Assembly (NCBI GenBank): GCA_015492515.1
Contig: WGEZ01000007.1
Span: 1-41,711 of the forward strand
Length of the DNA: 41,711 nt
Source: Nitrospirota bacterium
Lineage (GTDB): Bacteria > Nitrospirota > Thermodesulfovibrionia > Thermodesulfovibrionales > JdFR-85
Reading direction: 5' to 3'
Position 1 is the first letter of the stretch; each line of letters starts with the position of its first letter. Position numbers and translations under genes: made by a program. Below the pieces are notes generated by a model. The model was not told the origin of the DNA, searched no databases, and worked only from the letters and a program-made list of their open reading frames with translations. Positions 9,927 to 23,831 of this stretch are shown here, piece after piece.

Positions 9927-10697
9927 ATGTCGTATCTGATTGCAGTGGCTGGAAAGGGCGGGACGGGCAAGACCAGCATAGCGGGCCTGACGGTCAGGTA
10001 TCTGGTGGAGAGGAAAGGGGGGCCGGTCCTCGCCGTCGATGCCGACAGCAACGCCTGCCTGAACGAGGCCCTCGGCGTCGAGGTCCATGCAACGGTCGGA
10101 CAGCTGAGGGAGACCTCCCTGGAGACCATCCGCTCTGGAGGCGCGAGACCCGGCGGCATGAGTATGGAGGAGCTCTTCGAGTACCAGATAAACCAGGCCC
10201 TCGTCGAGTCGAAGGGGTTCGACCTCCTGGTGATGGGCAGACCCGAGGGGCCCGGCTGTTACTGTGCTGCAAACAACATCATAAGGAAGTATACCGACCT
10301 CCTCTCGGAACGCTACCCCTACGTGGTGATCGATAACGAGGCGGGCATGGAGCACCTGAGCAGGCGTACGACGCACAGGGTGAACCTCCTCCTGATGGTG
10401 AGCGACCCGACGGTCAGGGGCGTGCAGACGGCGCGGAGGATCAACGACCTCGTGGATGAACTGAAGCTGGAGATCGAAAGAAGGGTGTTGATCATAAACA
10501 GGGTCTCCGGTGACGAGGGTGACAGGCTGAAGGAACTGGCAGAGGGCATGGGGCTTCACGTTGCAGGGCTTGTTCCACAGGACGGCATCATATTCGAGTA
10601 CGACCTGAAGGGCATCCCGATCTTCAACCTCCCCGGGGACTCGCCTGCCCTGATATCGGTCTTCTCCATCCTCGACGACCTCCTCGGGCAGCGGTAG
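9927..10697 (+). CDS. cooC: CooC/AcsF-type CODH maturation ATPase
   Basis: AVAGKGGTGKTS deviant Walker A, VDADSNACLNEALG, GPGCYCAANNIIRK (CXC), VVIDNEAGMEHLSRRTT. Confidence 0.9.
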   Translation: MSYLIAVAGKGGTGKTSIAGLTVRYLVERKGGPVLAVDADSNACLNEALGVEVHATVGQLRETSLETIRSGGARPGGMSMEELFEYQINQALVESKGFDLLVMGRPEGPGCYCAANNIIRKYTDLLSERYPYVVIDNEAGMEHLSRRTTHRVNLLLMVSDPTVRGVQTARRINDLVDELKLEIERRVLIINRVSGDEGDRLKELAEGMGLHVAGLVPQDGIIFEYDLKGIPIFNLPGDSPALISVFSILDDLLGQR

Positions 10698-10978: not shown

Positions 10979-11761
10979 ATGCTTATAATCGGGGAGAAAC
11001 TGAGCATCATCGCCAAACGCGTCAGGGAAGCCATGATGAAGAGGGACAAGGGGCCCATTCAGGAGATCGCCCGTGCACAGCACAAGGGTGGTGCGGGGAT
11101 GATCGACGCCAACATAGGCCCTGCAGAGGACGGCGGCGAGGAACTGATGGAGTGGATGGTCACCACCATCCAGGAGGCCGTCCCCCTCCCTGTATGCCTC
11201 GATACCACTAACTACGCGGCCGTTGAGGCGGGGCTGAAGGTTCACAACAATGATTACGGCCTTCCCATGATCAACTCCACCTCGAACGATCCCGAGCGCT
11301 TTCCGATGCTCGAACTCGCAGCCAGGTACAGCTGTCTGATCATAGGGCTCACAGTGGGCAAGGGAGGGCTGCCTGCCGACGAGGAGGAGAGGTCTGCCAT
11401 TGCGGCGGAGATCATGGCAAGGGCCATGGAGTACGGCGTGCCCCTTGAGAACCTCTATCTCGACCCCCTGGTACTCCAGATATCCACGACCCAGGAGCAG
11501 GCACTGAAGGTGATCAAGACGATAGGGATGTTCCAGGAGCTGAACGACCCGCCGATGAAGACGGTGGTGGGGTTGAGCAACATCTCCAACGGATGCCCCA
11601 GGCATGTGAGGCCGGTGCTGAACAGGTACCTCCTTGCGCTGCTGATGTACGAGGGGCTCACGGCGGCCATAGCCGATCCGCTGGAGGTGAGGGAAACGGT
11701 GAAGACCATAGACGTACTCATGAACAGAACACTCTATGCCCATTCATACCTTGAGATGTGA
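10979..11761 (+). CDS. acsE: Methyltetrahydrofolate:corrinoid/iron-sulfur protein methyltransferase
   Basis: LIIGEKLSIIAKRVREAM, MIDANIGPAEDGGEELMEWMV, CLDTTNYAAVEAGL, GLSNISNGCPRHVRPVLNRYLLALLM; pterin-binding fold. Confidence 0.92.
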   Translation: MLIIGEKLSIIAKRVREAMMKRDKGPIQEIARAQHKGGAGMIDANIGPAEDGGEELMEWMVTTIQEAVPLPVCLDTTNYAAVEAGLKVHNNDYGLPMINSTSNDPERFPMLELAARYSCLIIGLTVGKGGLPADEEERSAIAAEIMARAMEYGVPLENLYLDPLVLQISTTQEQALKVIKTIGMFQELNDPPMKTVVGLSNISNGCPRHVRPVLNRYLLALLMYEGLTAAIADPLEVRETVKTIDVLMNRTLYAHSYLEM

Positions 11762-11814: not shown

Positions 11815-12753
11815 ATGGCCTTTGTACCACCGAAAGAGAGCTTTGCAGGGAGGGTCTTTCCCGTAACGATCGGCTCCGAGGTTCAGGAGACCTTCGGCGG
11901 GGAGAACACGCTGCCCTTCCACACCTTCGAGGGCGAGGTGCCGCACAGGCCGCTCATCGCCTATGAGATACAGGATGTCCCTCCAGATGACTGGCCCGAG
12001 ACGGTGAGGATGGTCTACGACGGCGTGAGCGACGATCCCGTGAAGTGGGCCAGACACTGCGTTGAGGAGCTGAAGGCCAGGGCGATAACGCTGAGGCTCA
12101 TCGGCACCCATCCTGACAACAAGGACCTCTCCGCCGACGATGCGGCGAAGACCGTCTCCGAGGTCCTGGGGGCCGTGAAGGTGCCCTTCATCGTCCTGGG
12201 GAGCAACCACGTGGAGAAGGATTCAGAGGTCCTGGTGAAGGCTGCTGAGGCGGCGAAGGGGCACAACTGCATAATCGGCAAGGCACAGGAGGCGAACTAC
12301 AAGACCATAGCTGCGGCAGCCATGGCAAGCGGACACAAGCTCATCGCCATGAGCGAGCTTGACATAAACCTCTCCAAGCAGCTGAACATCCTGATCACCC
12401 AGATGGGGTTCGAGAAGGAGAGGCTGATCACCGATCCGATGTGTTCAGCCCTGGGATACGGGCTTGAGTATACCTACTCGGTGATGGAGCGTATCAGACT
12501 GGCGGCGCTTGCCCAGAACGACGCGGTGATGCAGCCGCCGCTGGTCGGCGACGTGGGTATGTATGTCTGGAAGATCAAGGAGACGCAGGCACCGGAGGAC
12601 GCGCTCCCTGAATGGGGGGCCCTCGAGCAGAGGGGCATCCTCTGGGAGGCGCTCACCGCGACCTCGTTGATGCTCTCCGGTGCGGAGCTGCTGATCCTCC
12701 GCCACCCAAAGGCCGTAGATGCGGTGGAGGGCTTTATAGACGAGCTCCTTTAA
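11815..12753 (+). CDS. acsD: Corrinoid/iron-sulfur protein small subunit (CODH/ACS delta)
   Basis: TIGSEVQETFGGENTLPFHTFEGEVPHRPLIAYEIQD; position between acsE and acsC. Confidence 0.92.
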   Translation: MAFVPPKESFAGRVFPVTIGSEVQETFGGENTLPFHTFEGEVPHRPLIAYEIQDVPPDDWPETVRMVYDGVSDDPVKWARHCVEELKARAITLRLIGTHPDNKDLSADDAAKTVSEVLGAVKVPFIVLGSNHVEKDSEVLVKAAEAAKGHNCIIGKAQEANYKTIAAAAMASGHKLIAMSELDINLSKQLNILITQMGFEKERLITDPMCSALGYGLEYTYSVMERIRLAALAQNDAVMQPPLVGDVGMYVWKIKETQAPEDALPEWGALEQRGILWEALTATSLMLSGAELLILRHPKAVDAVEGFIDELL

Positions 12754-12774: not shown

Positions 12775-14118
12775 ATGGCATTGACGGGCGTTGAGATATT
12801 CAAGCTGCTGCCAAAGACGAACTGCAAGAAATGCGGGTTTCCCACATGTCTTGCCTTTGCGATGAAGCTGGCCCAGAGACAGGTGACGCTGGACGCCTGT
12901 CCCGACGTCTCCGATGAGGCGAAGAGGATCCTCGGCGAGGCGTCCGCCCCGCCCGTGAGGCCTATAACCATCGGTGCAGGGGATAAGGCCGTGAAGATGG
13001 GCGAGGAGACGGTGCTCTTCAGGCATGAGAAGAAGTTCGTGAACCCGAACGTCTTCGCCCTGGAGATCAAGGACACCGAGCCGGACGATGTGGTCGAGGG
13101 CAAGATCAACGACCTGCTCACCTCGGAGATAAACAGGGTGGGACAGCTCTTGAGGATCGACGCCTTCTGCCTCACCGGTGCCTCCGGCGACGCCGGAAGC
13201 CTTGAGGGCCTTGCGAAACGGGTGGCGGAGAAGGCGCCTGACGTACCGGTGATCATCTCCACTGAAGACCCGGAGGCTGCAGAGGCCGCCCTGAAGGTCT
13301 TCGGCGGCAAGAAGGCGGTCCTCTACGGTGCTACGGAGGCGAACGCGGAGAAGATGGCGGCCCTTGCAAAGGCCAACGGCGCGGTCCTCGGTGTGAGGGC
13401 GGAGGGCCTGGAGCCGCTCACCGCCCTGACGGAGAAGGTGAAGTCCCTCGGGGTCGAGGATCTGGTGATAGATTCGGGTGCCCGGAGGGCGCGGGAGATC
13501 CTTGAACACAACACCTTCATCAGGAGGGCGGCGGTAAAGAAGAACTTCAAGCCCCTCGGTTACCCGGTGATCAACTTCGTCCAGCGCGACGACCCCACGA
13601 TGGAGGCGCTGATCGCCGGGCTCGGCGTGGCGAAGTACGCCTCGATCGTTGTTATCAGCTCTGCGGAGAAATGGAAGAACCTCGCCCTCTTCACCCTGAG
13701 GCAGAACATCTATACAGACCCTCAGGTGCCGATGCAGGTGGAGCAGAAGATCTACAAGATCGGCGAGCCCACAGAGGAGTCCCCCCTGCTCATCACCACG
13801 AACTTCTCCCTCACCTACTTCATCGTCTCAGGCGAGGTGGAGAACTCGAGGGTGCCGGCCCATCTCGCCGTGATGGACTGCGAGGGGCTCTCCGTGCTCA
13901 CCGCATGGGCGGCGGGCAAGTTCACCGGTGCAAAGATCGCCAACTTCATCAAGGAGAGCGGGGTGGAGAAGGAGATAAAGCACAGGGAGCTGATCATCCC
14001 CGGTTATGTGGCCATACTGAGCGGTGCGATCGAGGAGAAGCTCGAGGGCTGGAAGGTCACCGTAGGCCCCAGGGAGGCGAACGCACTGCCCAGCTTCCTC
14101 CGCTCCAGGGCGGCGTGA
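12775..14118 (+). CDS. acsC: Corrinoid/iron-sulfur protein large subunit (CODH/ACS gamma)
   Basis: N-terminal TNCKKCGFPTCLAFAMKLAQ [4Fe-4S] motif; C-terminal corrinoid-binding region; 447 aa. Confidence 0.93.
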   Translation: MALTGVEIFKLLPKTNCKKCGFPTCLAFAMKLAQRQVTLDACPDVSDEAKRILGEASAPPVRPITIGAGDKAVKMGEETVLFRHEKKFVNPNVFALEIKDTEPDDVVEGKINDLLTSEINRVGQLLRIDAFCLTGASGDAGSLEGLAKRVAEKAPDVPVIISTEDPEAAEAALKVFGGKKAVLYGATEANAEKMAALAKANGAVLGVRAEGLEPLTALTEKVKSLGVEDLVIDSGARRAREILEHNTFIRRAAVKKNFKPLGYPVINFVQRDDPTMEALIAGLGVAKYASIVVISSAEKWKNLALFTLRQNIYTDPQVPMQVEQKIYKIGEPTEESPLLITTNFSLTYFIVSGEVENSRVPAHLAVMDCEGLSVLTAWAAGKFTGAKIANFIKESGVEKEIKHRELIIPGYVAILSGAIEEKLEGWKVTVGPREANALPSFLRSRAA

Positions 14119-14346: not shown

Positions 14347-16545
14347 ATGTCAAAGATAATCGCCTCGGCTGCGATCAGAGGGTCACATAGAGTCTTCAGG
14401 CAGACTGAGGAGTTGCTCCAGAAGGTGATCGCCGAGAAGGGGGAGGACCACCACTTCGAGTTTCCCGACACCGCATACCACCTTCCCATGATCTACGCCA
14501 TCACAGGCTTTGAGGTGAAGACGCTGAAGGACATGAAAGAGGCGCTGAGGATGACCCAGGACCTGCTGCACGACGAGCCTGACGACAGGCTCTGGTCTCC
14601 CTACCTCGGTGAGGCCCTCGATTCCGGGATGGCCACCCTCTTTGCCGAGGAGATATGGCTCGCCCTCAGATACATCGAGGGGCTTGAACCGGCGAAGGAC
14701 CCAGAGACAGGGTATGTGTACAACGGATTCATAACCGACACGATACAGAGGAACCTCGGCATCCAGCTCGTTGACGGCAGGATGCCCGGGTTTGCGGCCA
14801 TCATCGGTGCCGCCCCCGACGACGACACGGCGGTGAAGATAGTGAGGGAGCTTCAGCAGAAGAACATCCTCGTCTTCCTCTCGGGCAACGTCAAGGGCGA
14901 GAGCGTCACGAAACAGCTCCTCAGGAAGAAGGTCGAGCTCGGTTGGGACGTCTACGTCGTCCCCCTCGGCCCTGATACGGAGCATACCCTCTATGCCCTC
15001 GACTGGGCCATAAGGGCCTCTCTCATCTTCGGGGGCATGAGCGGCGGTGACTTCAAGGGCAACCTCAGATACACGAAGGAGAGGGTCTTCGCCTACGCCC
15101 TAGTGCTCGGCGAGCTCGACGACGTCAAGTGGGCGACCGGTGCAGGCGCCATAAACCTCGGCTTCCCGGCCATCTGTGACACCGACGTGCCCGTCATCCA
15201 CCCCACAGGCGTATGCACCTATGAGGAGGTGGAGAAGGAACTCGACCATGACAAGATCGTCCAGCGGGCCATCGAGGTGAGGGGGCTGAAGGTCCTGGTG
15301 GAGAAGCCGCCGATACCGATCGCCTACGGCCCTGCCTTTGAGGGTGAGAGGATAAGGAAGGAGGAGACCTTCATAGAGTTCGGCGGTACAAAGTCGGCCG
15401 CCTTCGAGTGGTGCAGGCTGCGTGAGGCCGAGGAGGTGGAGGACGGCAAGATCGAGATCGTGGGTGAGAACTGGAAGGAGAGGTATGAGCAGGGCGGTAC
15501 AATGCCCCTCGGCATCGTCGTCGACGTGACGGGCAGGAAGATGCAGGCCGACTTCCTCCCCATCATCGAGAGGAGGCTCCACCACAACATAAACGAAGGA
15601 CAGGGCATATGGCACATGGGACAGAGGGACATACCCTGGATAAGGATAAGCCATAGTGCGAAACAGGCGGGCTTCAGCCTTGAGGACATCGCCAAGATAC
15701 ACCATGCAATGACCCACAAGAGGTTCAGCTCCATAGTGGACAAGGTGCAGGTGACGCTCTATACAGAGGAGGAGGACGTGATCAGGCTCCGTGACGAGGC
15801 GAGGGCGGACTGGAAGGCGAGGGACGAGAGGCTCGCCGCCCTTACGGATGAGACGGTGGACACCTTCTACTCCTGTCTGCTCTGCCAGTCCTTCGCACCG
15901 AGCCACGTCTGCGTGATCACCCCCGAGAGGCTCGGCCTCTGCGGTGCCTACAACTGGCTGGACACGAAGGCGGCCTACGAGATAGATCCCACCGGCGGCA
16001 ACCAGCCCATCGCAAAGGGTGAGCTGATCGACACCAGATACGGCAGGTACACCGGTGTGGACGAGTACCTTAAGCAGGCCTCCGGCGGTGCCGTGGAGAC
16101 CCTGAACCTCTACACGATCATGGAGAACCCTATGACCTCCTGCGGATGCTTCGAATGCATCCTGGCGATCATTCCCGAGGCCAACGGCGTGATGATCGTC
16201 CAGAGGGGGCATACCGGCATGACCCCTATAGGGATGAAGTTCTCCACCCTCGCCGGAACCGTGGGTGGAGGCGTTCAGACACCCGGGTTCATGGGTATCG
16301 GTGTGAACTTCATCACCAGCAGGAAGTTCCTCGCCGGAGACGGCGGGATAAAGAGGGTGGTCTGGATGACGAAGGCCCTGAAGGAGAGGGTGAGAGAGGG
16401 CTTTCAGAGGGCTGCTGCCGAGGCAGGGGTTCCGGACCTCCTCGACAAGGTAGCCGATGAGACCATCTGTGAGGATTCGGAGAAGCTCCTCGAGTACCTT
16501 ACCGAGGTGGGACACCCGGCCCTCGAGATGGAGCCGATGATATGA
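14347..16545 (+). CDS. acsB: Acetyl-CoA synthase (CO-methylating), bacterial full-length form
   Basis: 732 aa; A-cluster cysteines present in FYSCLLCQSFAPSHVCVITPERLGLCGAYNW and TSCGCFECI. Confidence 0.95.
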   Translation: MSKIIASAAIRGSHRVFRQTEELLQKVIAEKGEDHHFEFPDTAYHLPMIYAITGFEVKTLKDMKEALRMTQDLLHDEPDDRLWSPYLGEALDSGMATLFAEEIWLALRYIEGLEPAKDPETGYVYNGFITDTIQRNLGIQLVDGRMPGFAAIIGAAPDDDTAVKIVRELQQKNILVFLSGNVKGESVTKQLLRKKVELGWDVYVVPLGPDTEHTLYALDWAIRASLIFGGMSGGDFKGNLRYTKERVFAYALVLGELDDVKWATGAGAINLGFPAICDTDVPVIHPTGVCTYEEVEKELDHDKIVQRAIEVRGLKVLVEKPPIPIAYGPAFEGERIRKEETFIEFGGTKSAAFEWCRLREAEEVEDGKIEIVGENWKERYEQGGTMPLGIVVDVTGRKMQADFLPIIERRLHHNINEGQGIWHMGQRDIPWIRISHSAKQAGFSLEDIAKIHHAMTHKRFSSIVDKVQVTLYTEEEDVIRLRDEARADWKARDERLAALTDETVDTFYSCLLCQSFAPSHVCVITPERLGLCGAYNWLDTKAAYEIDPTGGNQPIAKGELIDTRYGRYTGVDEYLKQASGGAVETLNLYTIMENPMTSCGCFECILAIIPEANGVMIVQRGHTGMTPIGMKFSTLAGTVGGGVQTPGFMGIGVNFITSRKFLAGDGGIKRVVWMTKALKERVREGFQRAAAEAGVPDLLDKVADETICEDSEKLLEYLTEVGHPALEMEPMI

Positions 16546-16615: not shown

Positions 16616-16648
16616 AAGCATGGTGACTAAATTTATTGGAGGTTGGAG

Positions 16649-18634
16649 ATGGCGGACAAGACGATAAAGAGTGCAGACAGGGTCGCAGAGGAGATCATCG
16701 AGTGGGCCGAGGGCCACGGTCTCGAGACGGCCTTCGACAGGGCGGAGAGGCTTCATCCCTGCCCCATCGGGCATTCCGGCGCCTGCTGCAAGATATGCTT
16801 CATGGGGCCCTGCAGGCTCGTCGGGCCTGATGCTGAGGAGAAGGCGGCGGGCGTATGCGGAGCGACCCTGCCGGTGGTGAGCGCCAGGAACTTCCTGAGG
16901 ATGGTCGCCGCCGGTACAGCCGCCCACAGCGATCACGCAAGGGACATGGCCTTCACCCTCCTGGAGGCGGCGACCGGTGAGGCCCCGGACTTCAAGATAA
17001 AGGACGAGGTGAAGCTGAGGAAGCTCGCCGGCATCCTCGATATCCCCACCGACGGCAAGACGAAGGAGATCATCGCCAAGGAGGTGGCCGAGAAGATCAT
17101 CAGCCAGTTCGGTCAGCAGAAGGGAGAGCTCGCCTTCATCAGGAGGGCACCCAAGAAGCGCCAGGAGGTGTGGCGGAAGTGGGGCCTCGTGCCGAGGGGC
17201 ATCGACCGCGAGGTCGCCGAGGCGATGCACAGGACCAACATGGGTGTGGACCAGGACCCCGAGAACCTGATGATGGCCGCCCTCAAGGTCTCTCTCGCCG
17301 ACGGATGGGGCGGCTGCATGTTCAGCACCGATATCACGGACATACTCTTCGGCACCCCCAGGCCGAGGCGTTCGCAGGCAAGCATCGGCATAATGAAGGA
17401 GGACGAGGTGAACGTGGTGGTCCACGGCCATGAACCGACCCTTGCGGAGATGGTCGTCGAGGCCGCTCAGGAGAAGGAGATGCTCGATTATGCAAAGCAG
17501 AAGGGAGCGAAGGGGATCAACCTCGTGGGGATGTGCTGCACAGCGAACGAGGTGCTGATGAGGCACGGCATACCCACTGCCGGTGGGTTCCTCAATCAGG
17601 AGCTGGCCGTGATGACGGGCCTTGCAGAGGCCGTTATGGTCGATGTCCAGTGCATAATGCCCGCCATCGCCCAGGCGGCGAAGAAGTTCCATACCAAGAT
17701 CATCACCACATCCCACAAGGGCAAGATGATCGATGCGGTTCATGTCCAGTACGATGAGCACAGGGCGAAGGAGGTGGCCAGACAGGTCCTGAGGCTCGCC
17801 ATCGACAACTTCGCCAACAGGACGGCCGAGGGGAGCAGGGTCCACGAGACCACCCCGGTGATCGCCGGCTTCTCCCATGAGTACATAGACTACATGCAGG
17901 GCGGCAGGTTCAGGGCATCCTTCAGGCCCCTGAACGATGCGATAATGGCCGGCAGGATCAGGGGCGTGGCAGGCATCGTGGGCTGCAACAACCCGAGGAT
18001 CGCCCAGGACAGCATTCACGACTACCTGGCAGAGGAGTTCATAAAGAACGACGTCCTCGTCGTGAGCACTGGTTGCGGGGCCGCCGCCTGTGCAAAGGCA
18101 GGGTTCATGACCCCTGAGACCGCCCTCGAGAAGGCGGGTCCGGGGTTGAGGGAGGTCTGTGAGGCGATAGGCATACCCCCGATCCTGCACCTCGGTGCCT
18201 GCGTGGACAACTCAAGGATACTCACCGTCGCCACCCACATGGTCAACGAAGGCGGCCTCGGTGACGATATCTCCGATCTTCCGGCGGTCGGCATCGCTCC
18301 TGAGTGGATGAGCGAGAAGGCCCTTGCGATAGGCTGCTACTTCGTGGCTTCCGGGATGTACGTCATATTCGGCTCCGAGAGCCCCGTCGAGGCGAGCGAG
18401 ACGGTCAAACATATAAAGAGGAACGTCTGGGAGGAGCGCGTGGGCGGCAAACTGGAGTTCGTAGCTGACCCTGACGAGATCCTGAAGAAGTCGCTGGAGC
18501 ATATCGACAAGAAGCGTGACGCCCTGAAGCTGAGGAAGTACGAGCCGGGCAGGTTCGGCGTGGAGAGGAAGCTGATGAGCATGGCTGACCGGCGTAAGCT
18601 CGAGGCCATTGCAAAGCCACACGAGATAAAGTGA
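16649..18634 (+). CDS. acsA: Ni-containing anaerobic carbon monoxide dehydrogenase catalytic subunit
   Basis: HPCPIGHSGACCKICFMGPCRL cluster motif, MCCTANEVLMRHGIP, GCNNPRIAQDSIHDY, VVSTGCGAAACAKAG, LHLGACVDNSRI. ATG 16649 has a GGAGG SD; the ORF-track start 16643 is a TTG. Confidence 0.95.
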   Translation: MADKTIKSADRVAEEIIEWAEGHGLETAFDRAERLHPCPIGHSGACCKICFMGPCRLVGPDAEEKAAGVCGATLPVVSARNFLRMVAAGTAAHSDHARDMAFTLLEAATGEAPDFKIKDEVKLRKLAGILDIPTDGKTKEIIAKEVAEKIISQFGQQKGELAFIRRAPKKRQEVWRKWGLVPRGIDREVAEAMHRTNMGVDQDPENLMMAALKVSLADGWGGCMFSTDITDILFGTPRPRRSQASIGIMKEDEVNVVVHGHEPTLAEMVVEAAQEKEMLDYAKQKGAKGINLVGMCCTANEVLMRHGIPTAGGFLNQELAVMTGLAEAVMVDVQCIMPAIAQAAKKFHTKIITTSHKGKMIDAVHVQYDEHRAKEVARQVLRLAIDNFANRTAEGSRVHETTPVIAGFSHEYIDYMQGGRFRASFRPLNDAIMAGRIRGVAGIVGCNNPRIAQDSIHDYLAEEFIKNDVLVVSTGCGAAACAKAGFMTPETALEKAGPGLREVCEAIGIPPILHLGACVDNSRILTVATHMVNEGGLGDDISDLPAVGIAPEWMSEKALAIGCYFVASGMYVIFGSESPVEASETVKHIKRNVWEERVGGKLEFVADPDEILKKSLEHIDKKRDALKLRKYEPGRFGVERKLMSMADRRKLEAIAKPHEIK

Positions 18635-18662: not shown

Positions 18663-19151
18663 ATGGATATAGAAGGTCTTGACGTCGAGCGGGAGATCGG
18701 CCGCGTCGGAAGGGTGCTCGGTGAGGTTGAGAAGAAGAGGGGGCTCCTGATACCCATCCTCCACAGGATCCAGGAGGACTACGGCTATCTGCCCGGAGAG
18801 GCCCTCGAGAGGCTGTCGAAGAAGCTCGGCCTGCCCCTGGCGGAGATATACAGCGTGGCCAGTTTCTACCACCAGTTCCATTTCAAGCCGAGGGGGAAGA
18901 AGATCGTGAGGGTCTGTATGGGGACCGCATGCCACGTCCGTGGCGCCTCGAAGGTGCTGGAGACGCTGGAGGACCGGTTCAGGATAGACGTGGGAGAGAC
19001 GACGGAGGACCTCTCCATGACGCTGGAGACCGTCGGCTGTGTGGGCTGTTGCGGCCTTGCACCCGTGGTCACCGTGAACGACGAGGTGCTGGGCGAGGTG
19101 AGCCCGAAGAAGATAGAGGGGCTGATAGAGATGATCGAGCAGGAGGAGTGA
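18663..19151 (+). CDS. NuoE-like [2Fe-2S] thioredoxin-fold subunit
   Basis: ILHRIQEDYGYLPGEALERLS, IYSVASFYHQFHF, CMGTACHVRGA...VGCVGCCGLAPVVTVND. Confidence 0.9.
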   Translation: MDIEGLDVEREIGRVGRVLGEVEKKRGLLIPILHRIQEDYGYLPGEALERLSKKLGLPLAEIYSVASFYHQFHFKPRGKKIVRVCMGTACHVRGASKVLETLEDRFRIDVGETTEDLSMTLETVGCVGCCGLAPVVTVNDEVLGEVSPKKIEGLIEMIEQEE

Positions 19152-19212
19152 AGGGAGCCGACGGGAGACCGGGAAGGGTCGTGGGGCCAACATACAACAC
19201 AAGAGGAGTGAG

Positions 19213-21093
19213 ATGACCAAACTGAAGAGCATCGAGGAGCTCAAGAACCTCAGGCTCCTCCTTAAGGACGAGACGTTCAAGGAGGATAAGGAGCGTATAA
19301 GGGCCTGCACAGGCACCGCCTGCCTGGCTACAGGGGCGAAGAAGGTGATCGAGAGGATCGAGGAGGGTGCCAGGCAGAAGGGGTTGGAGGTGGAGATCGT
19401 GAAGACAGGATGCCAGGGGCTCTGCCAGAAGGGGCCTGTGATGAAGGTGGAACCCTTCGGTTACTTCTATCAGAGGGTGAAGAGCGACGACGCCCCTGAG
19501 TTGGTCACCAACACGCTCTCGGCAGGGTTCCCCGTGAGGCGGCTGCTCTTCAGGGACTCCATCTACGAGGAACCCTATGAGCTCATGGACAGCCTCCCCT
19601 TCTACAAGAAGCAGTACCGCATCGCCCTCAGGAACAACGGCCGTATCGATCCGAACAACATAAACCATTACATAGCCGTGGGCGGCTACTCCGCCTTCGA
19701 GAAGGCCCTGGAGGGCATGACCCCAGACGAGGTCCTCGACGAGGTGGACAGGGCGAACCTCCGCGGCCGCGGAGGCGCCGGGTTCCCGGCGGGCAAGAAG
19801 TGGCGCCACACAAAGAAGGCGCCGGGGGAGCTGAAGTTCGTGGTCGCCAACGGCGACGAGGGTGACCCCGGTGCGTTCATGGACCGCTCGATCATGGAGG
19901 GCGACCCCCACAGCCTGATCGAGGGGATGCTGCTCTGCGCCTATGCGATCCAGGCCAGGTACGGCTTCATATACGTTCGTCACGAGTATCCCCTCGCGGT
20001 CAGGAACCTGAGGGTGGCCATAAAACAGGCCGAGGAACTCGGCCTCCTCGGCGAGGACATACTCGGAAGCGGTTTCAGCTTTTACCTTGATATAAGGGAG
20101 GGTGCGGGCGCCTTCGTCTGCGGAGAGTCGACGGCGCTCGTGGCCTCTATAGAGGGTGACAGGGGCTTCCCCAGGCCGAGACCCCCGAGGCTCTCCGAGC
20201 CGGGAGGAGGCCTCTGGGGCCACCCGACGAACCTCAACAACATCGAGACCTATGCATGCGTGCCTCCCATAATCGAGAAGGGCGCCGATTGGTTCCTCTC
20301 GATCGGAACCCCGAACTCACCGGGTACAAAGGTCTTCGCCCTCACGGGGAAGGTGAAGAATACGGGGCTCGTCGAGGTGCCGATGGGAACCACCCTCAGG
20401 GAGATAATATTCGAGATAGGCGGCGGCATAATGGGGGACAAGAGGTTCAAGGCCGTTCAGACGGGCGGTCCCTCGGGCGGTTGCATCCCCGAGCAGTTTC
20501 TGGACCATCCCGTTGATTTCGACTCCCTCAGGGAGCTCGGCTCCATGATGGGTTCCGGCGGGCTCGTAGTCATGGACGAGGATACCTGCATGGTGGACGT
20601 GGCAAGGTACTTCCTCTCCTTCACCCAGTCGGAGTCCTGCGGAAAGTGTCCTCCCTGCAGGCTGGGCACCTTCCAGATGCTCAATATCCTGGAGCGGATC
20701 ACCACCGGAAAGGGGGTTCCCGAGGACCTGGAGATACTCGAGCGGTACAGCAGGCTGATCAAGGAAGGCTCGCTCTGCGGCCTCGGCCAGAGCGCCCTCA
20801 ACCCTGTGATCAGCACCATGAAGTACTTCAGGCAGGAGTACGAAGAGCACATCTACGACAAGTACTGCAGGGCCAAGGTATGCACCGGGCTCGGCTTCTT
20901 CAGGATCGAACACTCGGAGTGCTTCCTCTGCGGCCTCTGCAAGCAGGCCTGCGCCTACGGTGCGGTGAAGGAGTCGAAGGACAGGTTCTTCATCGAGCAG
21001 GCGGAATGCACCAAGTGCAAGGCCTGTTACATCGCCTGTCCCATCGATGCGGTGAAGATAGAGAAGCAGCCTAAAGAGGCGGCAAGAAGGTAG
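19213..21093 (+). CDS. NuoF/HydB-like FMN and NAD-binding Fe-S subunit with N-terminal 2Fe-2S and C-terminal 2x[4Fe-4S] domains
   Basis: CTGTACLATGAKKV (N-term), NLRGRGGAGFPAGKKW, NGDEGDPGAFMDRS, SESCGKCPPCRLG, and C-terminal CFLCGLCKQAC / CTKCKACYIAC. Confidence 0.92.
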   Translation: MTKLKSIEELKNLRLLLKDETFKEDKERIRACTGTACLATGAKKVIERIEEGARQKGLEVEIVKTGCQGLCQKGPVMKVEPFGYFYQRVKSDDAPELVTNTLSAGFPVRRLLFRDSIYEEPYELMDSLPFYKKQYRIALRNNGRIDPNNINHYIAVGGYSAFEKALEGMTPDEVLDEVDRANLRGRGGAGFPAGKKWRHTKKAPGELKFVVANGDEGDPGAFMDRSIMEGDPHSLIEGMLLCAYAIQARYGFIYVRHEYPLAVRNLRVAIKQAEELGLLGEDILGSGFSFYLDIREGAGAFVCGESTALVASIEGDRGFPRPRPPRLSEPGGGLWGHPTNLNNIETYACVPPIIEKGADWFLSIGTPNSPGTKVFALTGKVKNTGLVEVPMGTTLREIIFEIGGGIMGDKRFKAVQTGGPSGGCIPEQFLDHPVDFDSLRELGSMMGSGGLVVMDEDTCMVDVARYFLSFTQSESCGKCPPCRLGTFQMLNILERITTGKGVPEDLEILERYSRLIKEGSLCGLGQSALNPVISTMKYFRQEYEEHIYDKYCRAKVCTGLGFFRIEHSECFLCGLCKQACAYGAVKESKDRFFIEQAECTKCKACYIACPIDAVKIEKQPKEAARR

Positions 21094-21166
21094 GGTCCCC
21101 CGGGGCGGCGGCACGCCACGGCTGAGGAAAGCCATTGGCTTACAACAAAGAATCAGCGAGGGTTAT

Positions 21167-21760
21167 ATGACCGAGCGGAAAGAGAAGAACCTGAAGGAGA
21201 TATTCAGGGAGATCGAGGAGAGAGGCTGCGTTGTCCAGAAGGGGATCATGCTCCTTGACGAGTTTCTGGACGGTCCGATGTGCGGCAGGTGTCTTCCATG
21301 TCCCATGGGCAGCTACGAGATGAGGGTGAGGCTCAGGAAGCTCGCGGAAGGCGAAGGAGAGGAGGAGGATATCGATGCCCTCATGATGATCGCACCGAAG
21401 ATGTACGACTCCTCCATGTGCAAGAAGGGAAAGGATACGGCGAAGTTCATCCTCGACACCCTTCAGACATTGACCGGAGAGTACTACTTCCATATACAGG
21501 GGAGGTGTCCCAAGAAGGAGTGCAGGCCCCTCTTTGTCTACAGGATCGCACATGACAGGTGCACCATGTGTGGCGACTGCCTCGATGTCTGCAAGGAGAA
21601 CGCGATCATCGGGGAGAAGAAGATCCCCTTCAAAACAGGGTATCTACCGTACGAGATAGTGGATAAACGGTGCACCAGGTGTGACGAGTGCAGGAAGGTC
21701 TGCAGGTATGACGCCGTAGAGATAGTGGATATCAAAGAGCTGGAGTCCGTTTCTCCTTGA
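21167..21760 (+). CDS. Stand-alone NuoF-C-terminal-like Fe-S protein (N3-type site plus 2x[4Fe-4S])
   Basis: MCGRCLPCPMGSYEM...DSSMC matches the NADH_4Fe-4S region of NuoF; then CTMCGDCLDVC and CTRCDECRKVC. No FMN/NAD domain. Confidence 0.8.
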   Translation: MTERKEKNLKEIFREIEERGCVVQKGIMLLDEFLDGPMCGRCLPCPMGSYEMRVRLRKLAEGEGEEEDIDALMMIAPKMYDSSMCKKGKDTAKFILDTLQTLTGEYYFHIQGRCPKKECRPLFVYRIAHDRCTMCGDCLDVCKENAIIGEKKIPFKTGYLPYEIVDKRCTRCDECRKVCRYDAVEIVDIKELESVSP

Positions 21761-21824
21761 CCGGCGTATCGGTGGTCGAGGCAGAGAGGGCGGCTCCAGC
21801 AAAGAATATAAAGGGAGGATCGAG

Positions 21825-23831
21825 ATGGGCAAGATGGTGAAGATCAGGATAAACGGCCGGGACTACAAGGTGCCCGAGGGCGTCAACCTCATTGATGCAG
21901 CCGAGGGCGTGGGCATCCATATCCCTAACTTCTGCTACCTCAAGGGGATGAAAGGGATAGGCGCATGCAGGATGTGTATGGTGGAGGTGGGTGGAAGGAT
22001 GTCCGTGGCATGCATAATGAGGACGAAGGAGGGGATGGACGTCGTCACCGAGAACGAAAAGATCAGGGAGCTGAGGAAGTTCGTCGTGGACATGATCCTC
22101 TCCATGCACCCCCTCGACTGTATGACCTGCACGAAGGCGGGTGTCTGCGGGCTCCAGAAGTACGCCTACGAGTTCGAGGTGCGGGAGTCCACCTTCACGA
22201 GGAAGAAGTTCGGTTTTCCAGTAGACGACGGCAACCCCTTCATCAAGCGCGACCCTGACTACTGCATACTCTGCGGCCGTTGCGTGAGGGTATGCAAGGA
22301 GCAGGGCACGAACGTGCTCGACTTCTACGGCCGGGGCGTCGGCTCAAGGGTAATTGCAGGCAACGACAGCCCCCTCCACGAGGCGGGCTGCACCTTCTGC
22401 GGCAGCTGCATCGATGCCTGTCCGGTGAACGCCATACTCGAGGCCGACAGGTGGCGCAAGGGGAGGGAGTGGGAGTACGAGAGGTTCAACTCCGTCTGCC
22501 TCTCCTGCGGCAACGCCTGCAGCACCCTGGTCTCCGTCCATGGCAAGGACGTGGCGAAGGTCACCATCGGTGCTGAGGAGGGGAGGGCCGAGCACTATAT
22601 CTGTGCCTACGGCAGATACGGGTTCGACTCCATGATCTCAGAGACGAGGGTCTCGACCCCCATGAAGAGGATCGACGGTGAACTGAAGCCCGTCACGTGG
22701 GAGGAGGCATACAGCAGCGCTGCCGAGGCCCTCAGCAACCCCGCCGAGGTGGGGATCGTGACCACGGGGAACCTGCCAAACGAGGATCTGCTGATGTTGA
22801 AGGGCCTTGCCGAGGCTGCAGGCATAAGAAACATCGACTCCACGGTGAGCCTCTACGCTGACCCCCCTTCGCTCATCGGTGATGAGGTGGACCTCGAGGA
22901 GGCCGACCTCGTGATGGTCGTGGGGCTCGATCCCTCCCAGAGGGAGAGGGTCCTCCCTGCGCTTGACGCCACGTTGAGGAAGATGGCGGCGAGGAAGACG
23001 ACGAAGCTGGTGGTTGTCAGCGCCGGGGATACGGGGCTCTCGGAGGTCGCAGAGTTGACCCTGAAGGGGGATGAGGCGGCCACCCTCGCAGGTGTTGCAA
23101 GGGCGCTTCTCCGGAAGGGGCTGAAGGCCCCGGAAGGGCTCGAGATCCCGGATGTGGAGCTCACAGAGGACGTCGAGAAGGCTGCCGAGCTCTTTGCAGG
23201 GGCGAAGAGCCCTGTGCTGGTGACGTCACCGCCCCTGTTCGAGGCGGCCCGGAACATCGCCCTCATGAAGGGTGCGGCCCTGTCGGTCCCTGTGGAGGCG
23301 AATGCAAAGGGTACCCTCATGATGGGGGTCATCGGCGACGGAAAGGGTTACACGGAGATGACCGGCGGCGGGACGAAGGTGCTCTATGCCGTCGGTGAGG
23401 TCCCTGTGAGCAGACCCGACGGGGTCGGGTTCCTGATAGTGCAGCATTCCCACCTCACAGACCTCGCAAAGGAGGCTGACCTCGTTCTCCCCGCCACCAC
23501 CCCCTACGAGACGGAGGGTACGGTGGTCGACTACATGGGGAGGCTGAAGAGGCTCGAGAGGGCGGTGCAGCCCTACGAGGATGCGAAGCCTCACAGGGAG
23601 ATATTCGGAGGCGTTGCAAAGGGTATGGACCTCTCGCTCAAACCCCCGAAGACCACGGATGTGAAGAAGGTGATCAAGACGTTCAAGGTCGAGGCAGGAC
23701 CCTCTGCATTCGAAAAGAGGGGCGACCTTGCGTTCAACCCGGAGGAGTTGATCCCCGCCCTCAACACCACGGTGATAAACGGCTCGAGACTCTTCTGGCT
23801 GAAAGAGGTCGAAGAGGCGGCAGCGGTCTGA
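21825..23831 (+). CDS. NuoG-like Fe-S subunit with shortened molybdopterin-oxidoreductase-like domain
   Basis: [2Fe-2S] IPNFCYLKGMKGIGACRMCMVEV, HPLDCMTCTKAGVCGL His-Cys site, CILCGRCVRVCKEQ, CTFCGSCIDACPVNA, CLSCGNAC; ~430-aa C-terminal domain. Confidence 0.88.
   Translation: MGKMVKIRINGRDYKVPEGVNLIDAAEGVGIHIPNFCYLKGMKGIGACRMCMVEVGGRMSVACIMRTKEGMDVVTENEKIRELRKFVVDMILSMHPLDCMTCTKAGVCGLQKYAYEFEVRESTFTRKKFGFPVDDGNPFIKRDPDYCILCGRCVRVCKEQGTNVLDFYGRGVGSRVIAGNDSPLHEAGCTFCGSCIDACPVNAILEADRWRKGREWEYERFNSVCLSCGNACSTLVSVHGKDVAKVTIGAEEGRAEHYICAYGRYGFDSMISETRVSTPMKRIDGELKPVTWEEAYSSAAEALSNPAEVGIVTTGNLPNEDLLMLKGLAEAAGIRNIDSTVSLYADPPSLIGDEVDLEEADLVMVVGLDPSQRERVLPALDATLRKMAARKTTKLVVVSAGDTGLSEVAELTLKGDEAATLAGVARALLRKGLKAPEGLEIPDVELTEDVEKAAELFAGAKSPVLVTSPPLFEAARNIALMKGAALSVPVEANAKGTLMMGVIGDGKGYTEMTGGGTKVLYAVGEVPVSRPDGVGFLIVQHSHLTDLAKEADLVLPATTPYETEGTVVDYMGRLKRLERAVQPYEDAKPHREIFGGVAKGMDLSLKPPKTTDVKKVIKTFKVEAGPSAFEKRGDLAFNPEELIPALNTTVINGSRLFWLKEVEEAAAV

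Follow-up and report, generated by a model that had tools for sequence, protein, structure and literature searches.

A free-standing Fe-S protein related to the C-terminal part of HydB/NuoF, encoded among CODH/ACS and NuoEFG-like genes in Nitrospirota

SHORT is a small protein encoded in the CODH/ACS operon of a Nitrospirota bacterium. It matches the C-terminal third of HydB/NuoF-type subunits and lacks the FMN/NAD domain. Probably it belongs, as a conserved and obligate fourth subunit, to a soluble NuoE-NuoF-NuoG module (Bfu/HydABC type), where it would be a flavin-free Fe-S relay or docking arm linking NAD(H) to ferredoxin-level enzymes.

The window is the whole stretch of DNA that was analysed, 41,711 nucleotides of contig WGEZ01000007.1. 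On its + strand the genes run in the order cooC, acsE, acsD, acsC, acsB, cooS, nuoE, nuoF, SHORT, nuoG. This places SHORT inside a CODH/ACS operon, as a sequence-only reading of the window had said.

9927..10697, + strand: CooC-like ATPase (CODH nickel insertion), CbiA/MinD type
10979..11761, + strand: AcsE, methyltransferase
11815..12753, + strand: AcsD, corrinoid Fe-S protein small subunit
12775..14118, + strand: AcsC, corrinoid Fe-S protein large subunit
14347..16545, + strand: AcsB, acetyl-CoA synthase
16643..18634, + strand: CooS / AcsA, anaerobic CO dehydrogenase catalytic subunit
18663..19151, + strand: NuoE/HydC/BfuC-like thioredoxin-fold [2Fe-2S] subunit
19213..21093, + strand: NuoF/HydB/BfuB-like subunit with FMN, N3, Zn/B2, 2x[4Fe-4S] and N-terminal [2Fe-2S]; partner clade of SHORT
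21158..21162, + strand: GAGGG, Shine-Dalgarno-like by sequence, 4 bases 5' of the SHORT ATG
21167..21760, + strand: SHORT, ATG start, 197 aa
21825..23831, + strand: NuoG/BfuA-like subunit, FdhF-type [4Fe-4S] site retained

The SHORT ORF has exactly the coordinates first given for it, and both motif pairs by which it had been likened to NuoF are present in the sequence. No strong + strand terminator was found from nuoE to nuoG, and a promoter scan gave a result no better than chance.

In Pfam, SHORT matches NADH_4Fe-4S (PF10589, 53.8 bits, cut-off 23.5) and Fer4/Fer4_7. The same scan finds no Complex1_51K / FMN-binding domain (IPR011538 / PF01512), no SLBB domain (IPR019554) and no thioredoxin-like domain, and only 38 residues stand ahead of the N3 motif. 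The domains thus confirm the earlier description of a detached N3-type cluster plus two [4Fe-4S] motifs without FMN. No NCBIfam model reaches its cut-off on SHORT, so it has no curated NCBIfam name.

The nearest solved proteins by sequence are the B subunits of electron-bifurcating complexes: NfnB (9n5u_B, E=2.7e-28), HoxF/StnB (8oh5_B, 4.5e-24) and HydB (7p5h_B, 7.2e-22). Each match spans SHORT residues 17 to about 185-191. An AlphaFold2 model made from 20 homologues (mean pLDDT 86.5) fits the C-terminal unit of NfnB 9n5u_B with TMq 0.73 and rmsd 1.6 A over 168 columns. The C-terminal half of these B subunits (BfuB; 7p5h, 8oh5, 9n5u, 9bp5; from HydABC, StnABC and NfnABC) shares the fold of SHORT, and has the same ligands for N3/B1, for Zn/B2 and for the two C-terminal [4Fe-4S] clusters. 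SHORT differs in being free-standing, in lacking the FMN/NAD, SLBB and N-terminal [2Fe-2S] domains, and in having about 7-9 extra residues between the ferredoxin motifs. Complex I NuoF/Nqo1 has the C-terminal N3 [4Fe-4S] bundle (PF10589) in common with SHORT; unlike SHORT, Nqo1 has neither the Zn ligands (PMC9499530) nor a C-terminal ferredoxin domain.

The metal ligands of SHORT, and one motif specific to it, are as follows.

21227-21229, + strand: C21, the remaining Zn/B2 ligand (assignment per PMC9304861 and PMC9499530)
21281..21301, + strand: CGRCLPC (C39, C42, C45), three ligands of the N3-type [4Fe-4S] cluster, by alignment with NuoF/HydB
21419-21421, + strand: C85, fourth N3 ligand, by alignment with NuoF/HydB
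21422..21436, + strand: KKGKD (K86-D90), SHORT-specific, adjoining the fourth N3 ligand; GLGQS or similar in NuoF/HydB
21491..21523, + strand: H109-C114-C119, part of the Zn/B2 site (assignment per PMC9304861 and PMC9499530)
21560..21592, + strand: first ferredoxin-type CxxCxxCxxxC (C132, C135, C138, C142)
21671..21703, + strand: second ferredoxin-type CxxCxxCxxxC (C169, C172, C175, C179)

These 16 Cys/His ligands are invariant in 20 aligned homologues. They are likewise invariant in 31 sequences from two phyla, a count that leaves out one C45Y row (L071).

The HIQGRCPKKEC segment is more than a linker: it is the Zn / 'B2 [2Fe-2S]' site that is conserved among bifurcating HydB proteins. In T. 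maritima HydB, three Cys and one His hold Zn (PMC9499530), while in a NiFe enzyme ligands at the same positions are described as part of a pentacoordinate [2Fe-2S] B2 cluster (PMC9304861). The fifth ligand position of B2 is Thr or Cys in 47/49 HydB/NuoF rows. It is Thr in only three of the 29 Nitrospirota SHORT rows, and the other 26 have neither Thr nor Cys. This makes Zn the likelier occupant, and the site of SHORT may hold only Zn; if so, the N3 and ferredoxin clusters of SHORT would have no internal bridge.

Around N3, no SHORT keeps the residues found in every HydB/NuoF row (S38, R46, G86, and S/T/G at 90). The replacements are mostly M38, K86 and D90, with R46 lost and the GLG motif gone. 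On the side by which NuoF contacts its flavin domain, SHORT has therefore probably acquired a different conserved face. The changes are identical in copies linked to CODH and in copies linked to pyruvate/2-oxoacid:ferredoxin oxidoreductase (POR), which points to a shared partner for this face, NuoG or NuoF, and not to CODH or POR.

HydB-type complexes are dimers of heterotrimers with reciprocating bridges. SHORT could be mainly structural, standing where a symmetric complex would have its second HydB bridge domain and so making the complex asymmetric, with its clusters structural or of minor redox use. The model of SHORT has the fold of the bundle plus bridge unit, most SHORTs have lost the fifth B2 ligand, the residues around N3 are swapped for a conserved charged motif, and no class with both bridges closed was seen in T. 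maritima HydABC (PMC9499530). A scaffold, however, would not need all twelve [4Fe-4S] cysteines to be strictly kept in the 31 sequences from two phyla, and a mainly structural role is improbable.

SHORT is not peculiar to one genome. A profile search finds a free-standing homologue in 149 of 396 Nitrospirota genomes, and in 96 of 170 genera. The dN/dS of SHORT is 0.05-0.19, and the protein is under purifying selection. SHORT aligns with about 170 C-terminal residues of the adjacent NuoF at 32% identity, which is what a decayed or misassembled fragment of a duplicated nuoF might also do. That explanation deserves practically no credence: besides the number of genomes and the dN/dS, the ligands are invariant and the SHORTs form one ancient clade, so that a decayed fragment in a single genome is excluded.

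The 28 Nitrospirota SHORT rows form one clade in the tree (100/99). When Actinomycetota are added, all 31 SHORT rows are split from all 51 HydB/NuoF rows by a single branch (100/99), inside which placements are unsure because of the long branches L065 and L121. The partner NuoF clade is likewise common to both phyla (99/97). The sequence-only reading had taken SHORT for a duplicated module of the NuoF next to it. A recent duplication is rejected, as the SHORTs of two phyla are one clade outside all HydB/NuoF. SHORT appears to descend from the C-terminal half of a HydB-like protein that lost its FMN/NAD domain.

Whether SHORT tracks the acs genes could be counted directly. AcsB is present in 178 of the 396 Nitrospirota genomes. 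SHORT and AcsB occur together in 143 genomes, SHORT alone in 6, AcsB alone in 35 and neither in 212. The association across these genomes is strong, in counts that are not corrected for kinship; 11 of the 35 genomes with AcsB only belong to one genus (g16).

The genomes without SHORT are informative. An intact partner-clade NuoF is absent from all 24 that were checked. Four of them (G005, G009, G096, G334) have a piece of such a NuoF ending at or near a contig end, and the rest have other HydB/NuoF proteins, at about 38-55% identity, or nothing. This argues that it is one NuoF clade, and not acs itself, that SHORT follows. One genus (L076 of G024, family f9) has acs genes without SHORT or the partner NuoF, and would be a natural control for the function of the module.

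At 65 of 75 loci examined, NuoF lies just upstream and NuoG just downstream of SHORT. Most of the other ten are at contig ends, or are rearranged yet still clustered. The order acsE-D-C-B-cooS-nuoE-F-SHORT-G is kept in named Nitrospirota, including Ca. Magnetobacterium and Magnetominusculus. Within 9 kb of SHORT there is CooS at 40 of the 75 loci, AcsB/C only at 2, Por at 7 and none of these at 26, the last class being inflated by short contigs. The earlier tie to CODH therefore stands in part. The acs/cooS neighbourhood is real, but it is not CODH alone that SHORT goes with: it follows one NuoF clade, and in seven genomes it is fused beside porGAB.

Several long contigs (L090-L094) carry a separate nuoE-F-SHORT-G cluster. 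Given these, and the 26/75 loci without cooS, acs or por, a physical union of SHORT with CODH is not forced by genome order. NuoEFG-SHORT might then stand alone as an NAD:ferredoxin oxidoreductase, of transhydrogenase-like or bifurcating type, with the supply of reduced ferredoxin as its only task. SHORT would be its second ferredoxin-docking port and have no contact with CODH or POR, and the shared operon would reflect co-regulation. Apart from the clusters away from cooS/acs, this draws support from family f25 (L065, L066, L081), where the module is with cooS on one contig and acs with a different NuoF on another, and from the proposal that the HydB C-terminal domains serve ferredoxin in the solved relatives (PMC9304861). 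It does not sit well with an Actinomycetota module lying inside the acs operon with its genes abutting, nor with the seven genomes in which a free-standing specialised copy coexists with another that is fused and lies beside por genes. We consider it unlikely, though a serious alternative.

In family f25, a different NuoF, longer at 774 aa and with 44% identity, comes after the acs operon together with a short NuoG (L081, 9646-11967), and cooS-nuoG-SHORT-nuoF-nuoE is sited away from that operon. Other loci vary as well. Tandem nuoF genes stand ahead of a single SHORT, three in G025 and two each in G034 and G225 (L052, 3405-10095; L097; L103). In L034 (JAKOEO010000008.1, 11519-17716), nuoG contains 1033-bp tandem copies, five identical and a sixth partly so; this is likely an assembly artefact, as 1033 is not a multiple of three.

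A second CooS type, at 52-54% identity to the CooS of the window, occurs with nuoE/F and SHORT in L071, L075 and L083. It adjoins larC-like (nickel insertion), larE-like PP-loop and larB-like AIR carboxylase genes, perhaps a nickel-pincer or nickel-supply cluster. Ech-type hydrogenase genes were not found beside this second CODH type in L071 and L075, where the neighbours are larBCE-like and other genes. In L071, NuoG is reduced to 131 aa and SHORT carries the C45Y change.

SHORT is not confined to Nitrospirota either. It is found in 4 of 150 Actinomycetota genomes, as proteins of 172-173 aa with scores of 150-174 bits. Their gene order is cooC-folD-acsD-nuoE-nuoF-SHORT-nuoG-cooS-acsB-acsC, with neighbouring genes abutting or overlapping. 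No SHORT was found in 149 Acidobacteriota genomes, nor in two overlapping Bacillota samples of 300 and 150 genomes. The best profile match among the 300 Bacillota genomes scores 118 bits, and all matches are HydB. A 191-aa ORF in one Bacillota genome (G468) was considered as a free-standing SHORT and rejected. It groups with HydB in the tree and is the tail of a HydB gene with one in-frame stop between its FMN part and its N3/ferredoxin part (L129, 6362-8218).

The partners of SHORT in the window can be classified by their domains. NuoF has the domain set of BfuB, with PF01512, PF10531, PF10589 and Fer4 in Pfam, BfuB being defined by IPR011538, IPR019554, IPR019575 and IPR017896 (PMC9304861). 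NuoE has the thioredoxin-like [2Fe-2S] domain of BfuC, and NuoG the Fer2 and Fer4 domains of BfuA. The B2-site His, reported as missing from HydB homologues that do not bifurcate, is present in the window NuoF (H546, aligned to H109 of SHORT) and in 49/49 HydB/NuoF rows. CODH genes are clustered with these bfuABC-type genes, as in Codh-Bfu. The NuoE-F-G module (18663-23831) is by these signs of the Bfu, HydABC-like type and putatively electron-bifurcating.

NuoG was considered as a formate dehydrogenase and rejected. The window protein has Tyr where the molybdopterin domain would carry its catalytic Sec/Cys. Among 22 NuoG proteins, most likewise have Tyr and none has Cys or Sec there. NuoG, whose Fe-S sites are kept, is thus expected to be an electron-transfer subunit.

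Some NuoF proteins carry additions. A partner NuoF of ~780 aa has a C-terminal CBS pair after the ferredoxin domain in Pfam (L043, 7650-9989), which suggests control by adenine nucleotides. L042, L057, L060 and others have a NuoF of the same length, with CBS identified in L043; the window NuoF is without the pair. An extra ferredoxin-type stretch past the usual dicluster occurs in a NuoF of ~738 aa (L071, 12744-14957) and in a NuoF-SHORT fusion (L051, 2476-5166).

Such fusions are found in seven genomes of family f10, where a NuoF of about 900 aa has a SHORT domain at its end. In all seven the fusion is followed by NuoG-PorG-PorA-PorB, and PorD is absent alongside it in 7/7. All seven genomes also hold a free-standing SHORT. 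In five it adjoins cooS or acsB; the contigs of the remaining two, G183 and G197, end before a cooS/acs neighbourhood can show. The fusion and the paired specialisation are the best evidence that SHORT would work with NuoF and that the module would serve ferredoxin-level enzymes.

In known relatives, B subunits carry electrons among FMN, N3 and the A subunit (PMC9499530, PMC9304861). Their C-terminal clusters are proposed to serve ferredoxin, and the Zn site may act as a hinge (PMC9499530, PMC9304861). The sequence-only reading had seen SHORT as an electron wire or docking protein, and we infer much the same.

As the probable fourth subunit, SHORT would have lost the FMN/NAD domain and retained ligands for three [4Fe-4S] clusters and the Zn/B2 site. 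At its ferredoxin-like end, low-potential electrons would pass to or from a ferredoxin-dependent catalyst, either directly or, for CODH, possibly via ferredoxin. In the window that catalyst would be the CODH of CODH/ACS; where SHORT is fused to NuoF, it would be POR. The remodelled N3 face would dock on NuoG or NuoF, giving a link to FMN and NAD(H). SHORT would thus give NuoEFG a second, flavin-free arm through which low-potential electrons could move in either direction between the module and CODH or POR. Overall, NAD(H) would be coupled to the reversible turnover of CO2/CO (or of 2-oxoacids), and ferredoxin might be a third partner. CooF and PorD are missing beside SHORT, which suggests that it replaces a ferredoxin subunit of that type. 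Its presumed role, as electron carrier of CODH or POR, is like theirs; they have no homology to SHORT over the N3 bundle. A point against this reading is that the adjacent NuoF keeps complete N3 and ferredoxin domains of its own, which leaves a second set of clusters without an obvious need.

It is possible, and we offer it tentatively, that SHORT is a detachable flavin-free port. It would let an NAD(H)-dependent bifurcating-type module exchange electrons directly with CODH/ACS or POR, without free ferredoxin. Two specialised copies in one genome, free-standing beside cooS/acs and fused beside porGAB, would then plug into two CO2-fixing enzymes.

Related systems have been proposed from gene clusters. 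Codh-Bfu is described for Firmicutes only (Acetohalobium arabaticum, Clostridium cellulovorans; Schut et al. 2022, PMC9304861), with BfuABC-like genes clustered with CO dehydrogenase as in the SHORT module. There the Codh genes lie between bfuB and bfuA, whereas the SHORT module belongs to Nitrospirota and Actinomycetota and has a full acs operon next to it. Por-Bfu, proposed for Dehalococcoides and others (PMC9304861), joins a Bfu module to 2-oxoacid oxidoreductase subunits, like the POR-linked SHORT loci; the latter differ in having only porG, porA and porB, and in the fusion of the SHORT domain to NuoF. The passages on Codh-Bfu and Por-Bfu in that source make no mention of a free-standing BfuB C-terminal subunit. 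A nuoEF pair near CODH/ACS has been reported in NPL-UPA2 Unc8 (PMC6305446). A word search of open-access full texts found no description of SHORT.

SHORT, being small, could serve for studying the debated Zn versus [2Fe-2S] B2 site by itself. It also shows that HydB's bundle-plus-bridge half, on which proposed mechanisms of flavin-based bifurcation in this family centre, can exist apart from the flavin domain.

Reduction of CO2 to CO needs electrons below the potential of NADH. To our knowledge, how CODH/ACS is supplied with electrons, or relieved of them, is largely unknown in Wood-Ljungdahl organisms beyond the model acetogens. SHORT is a concrete, testable candidate for the link from an NAD(H) module to CODH/ACS in two phyla and, in a sister arrangement, to POR.
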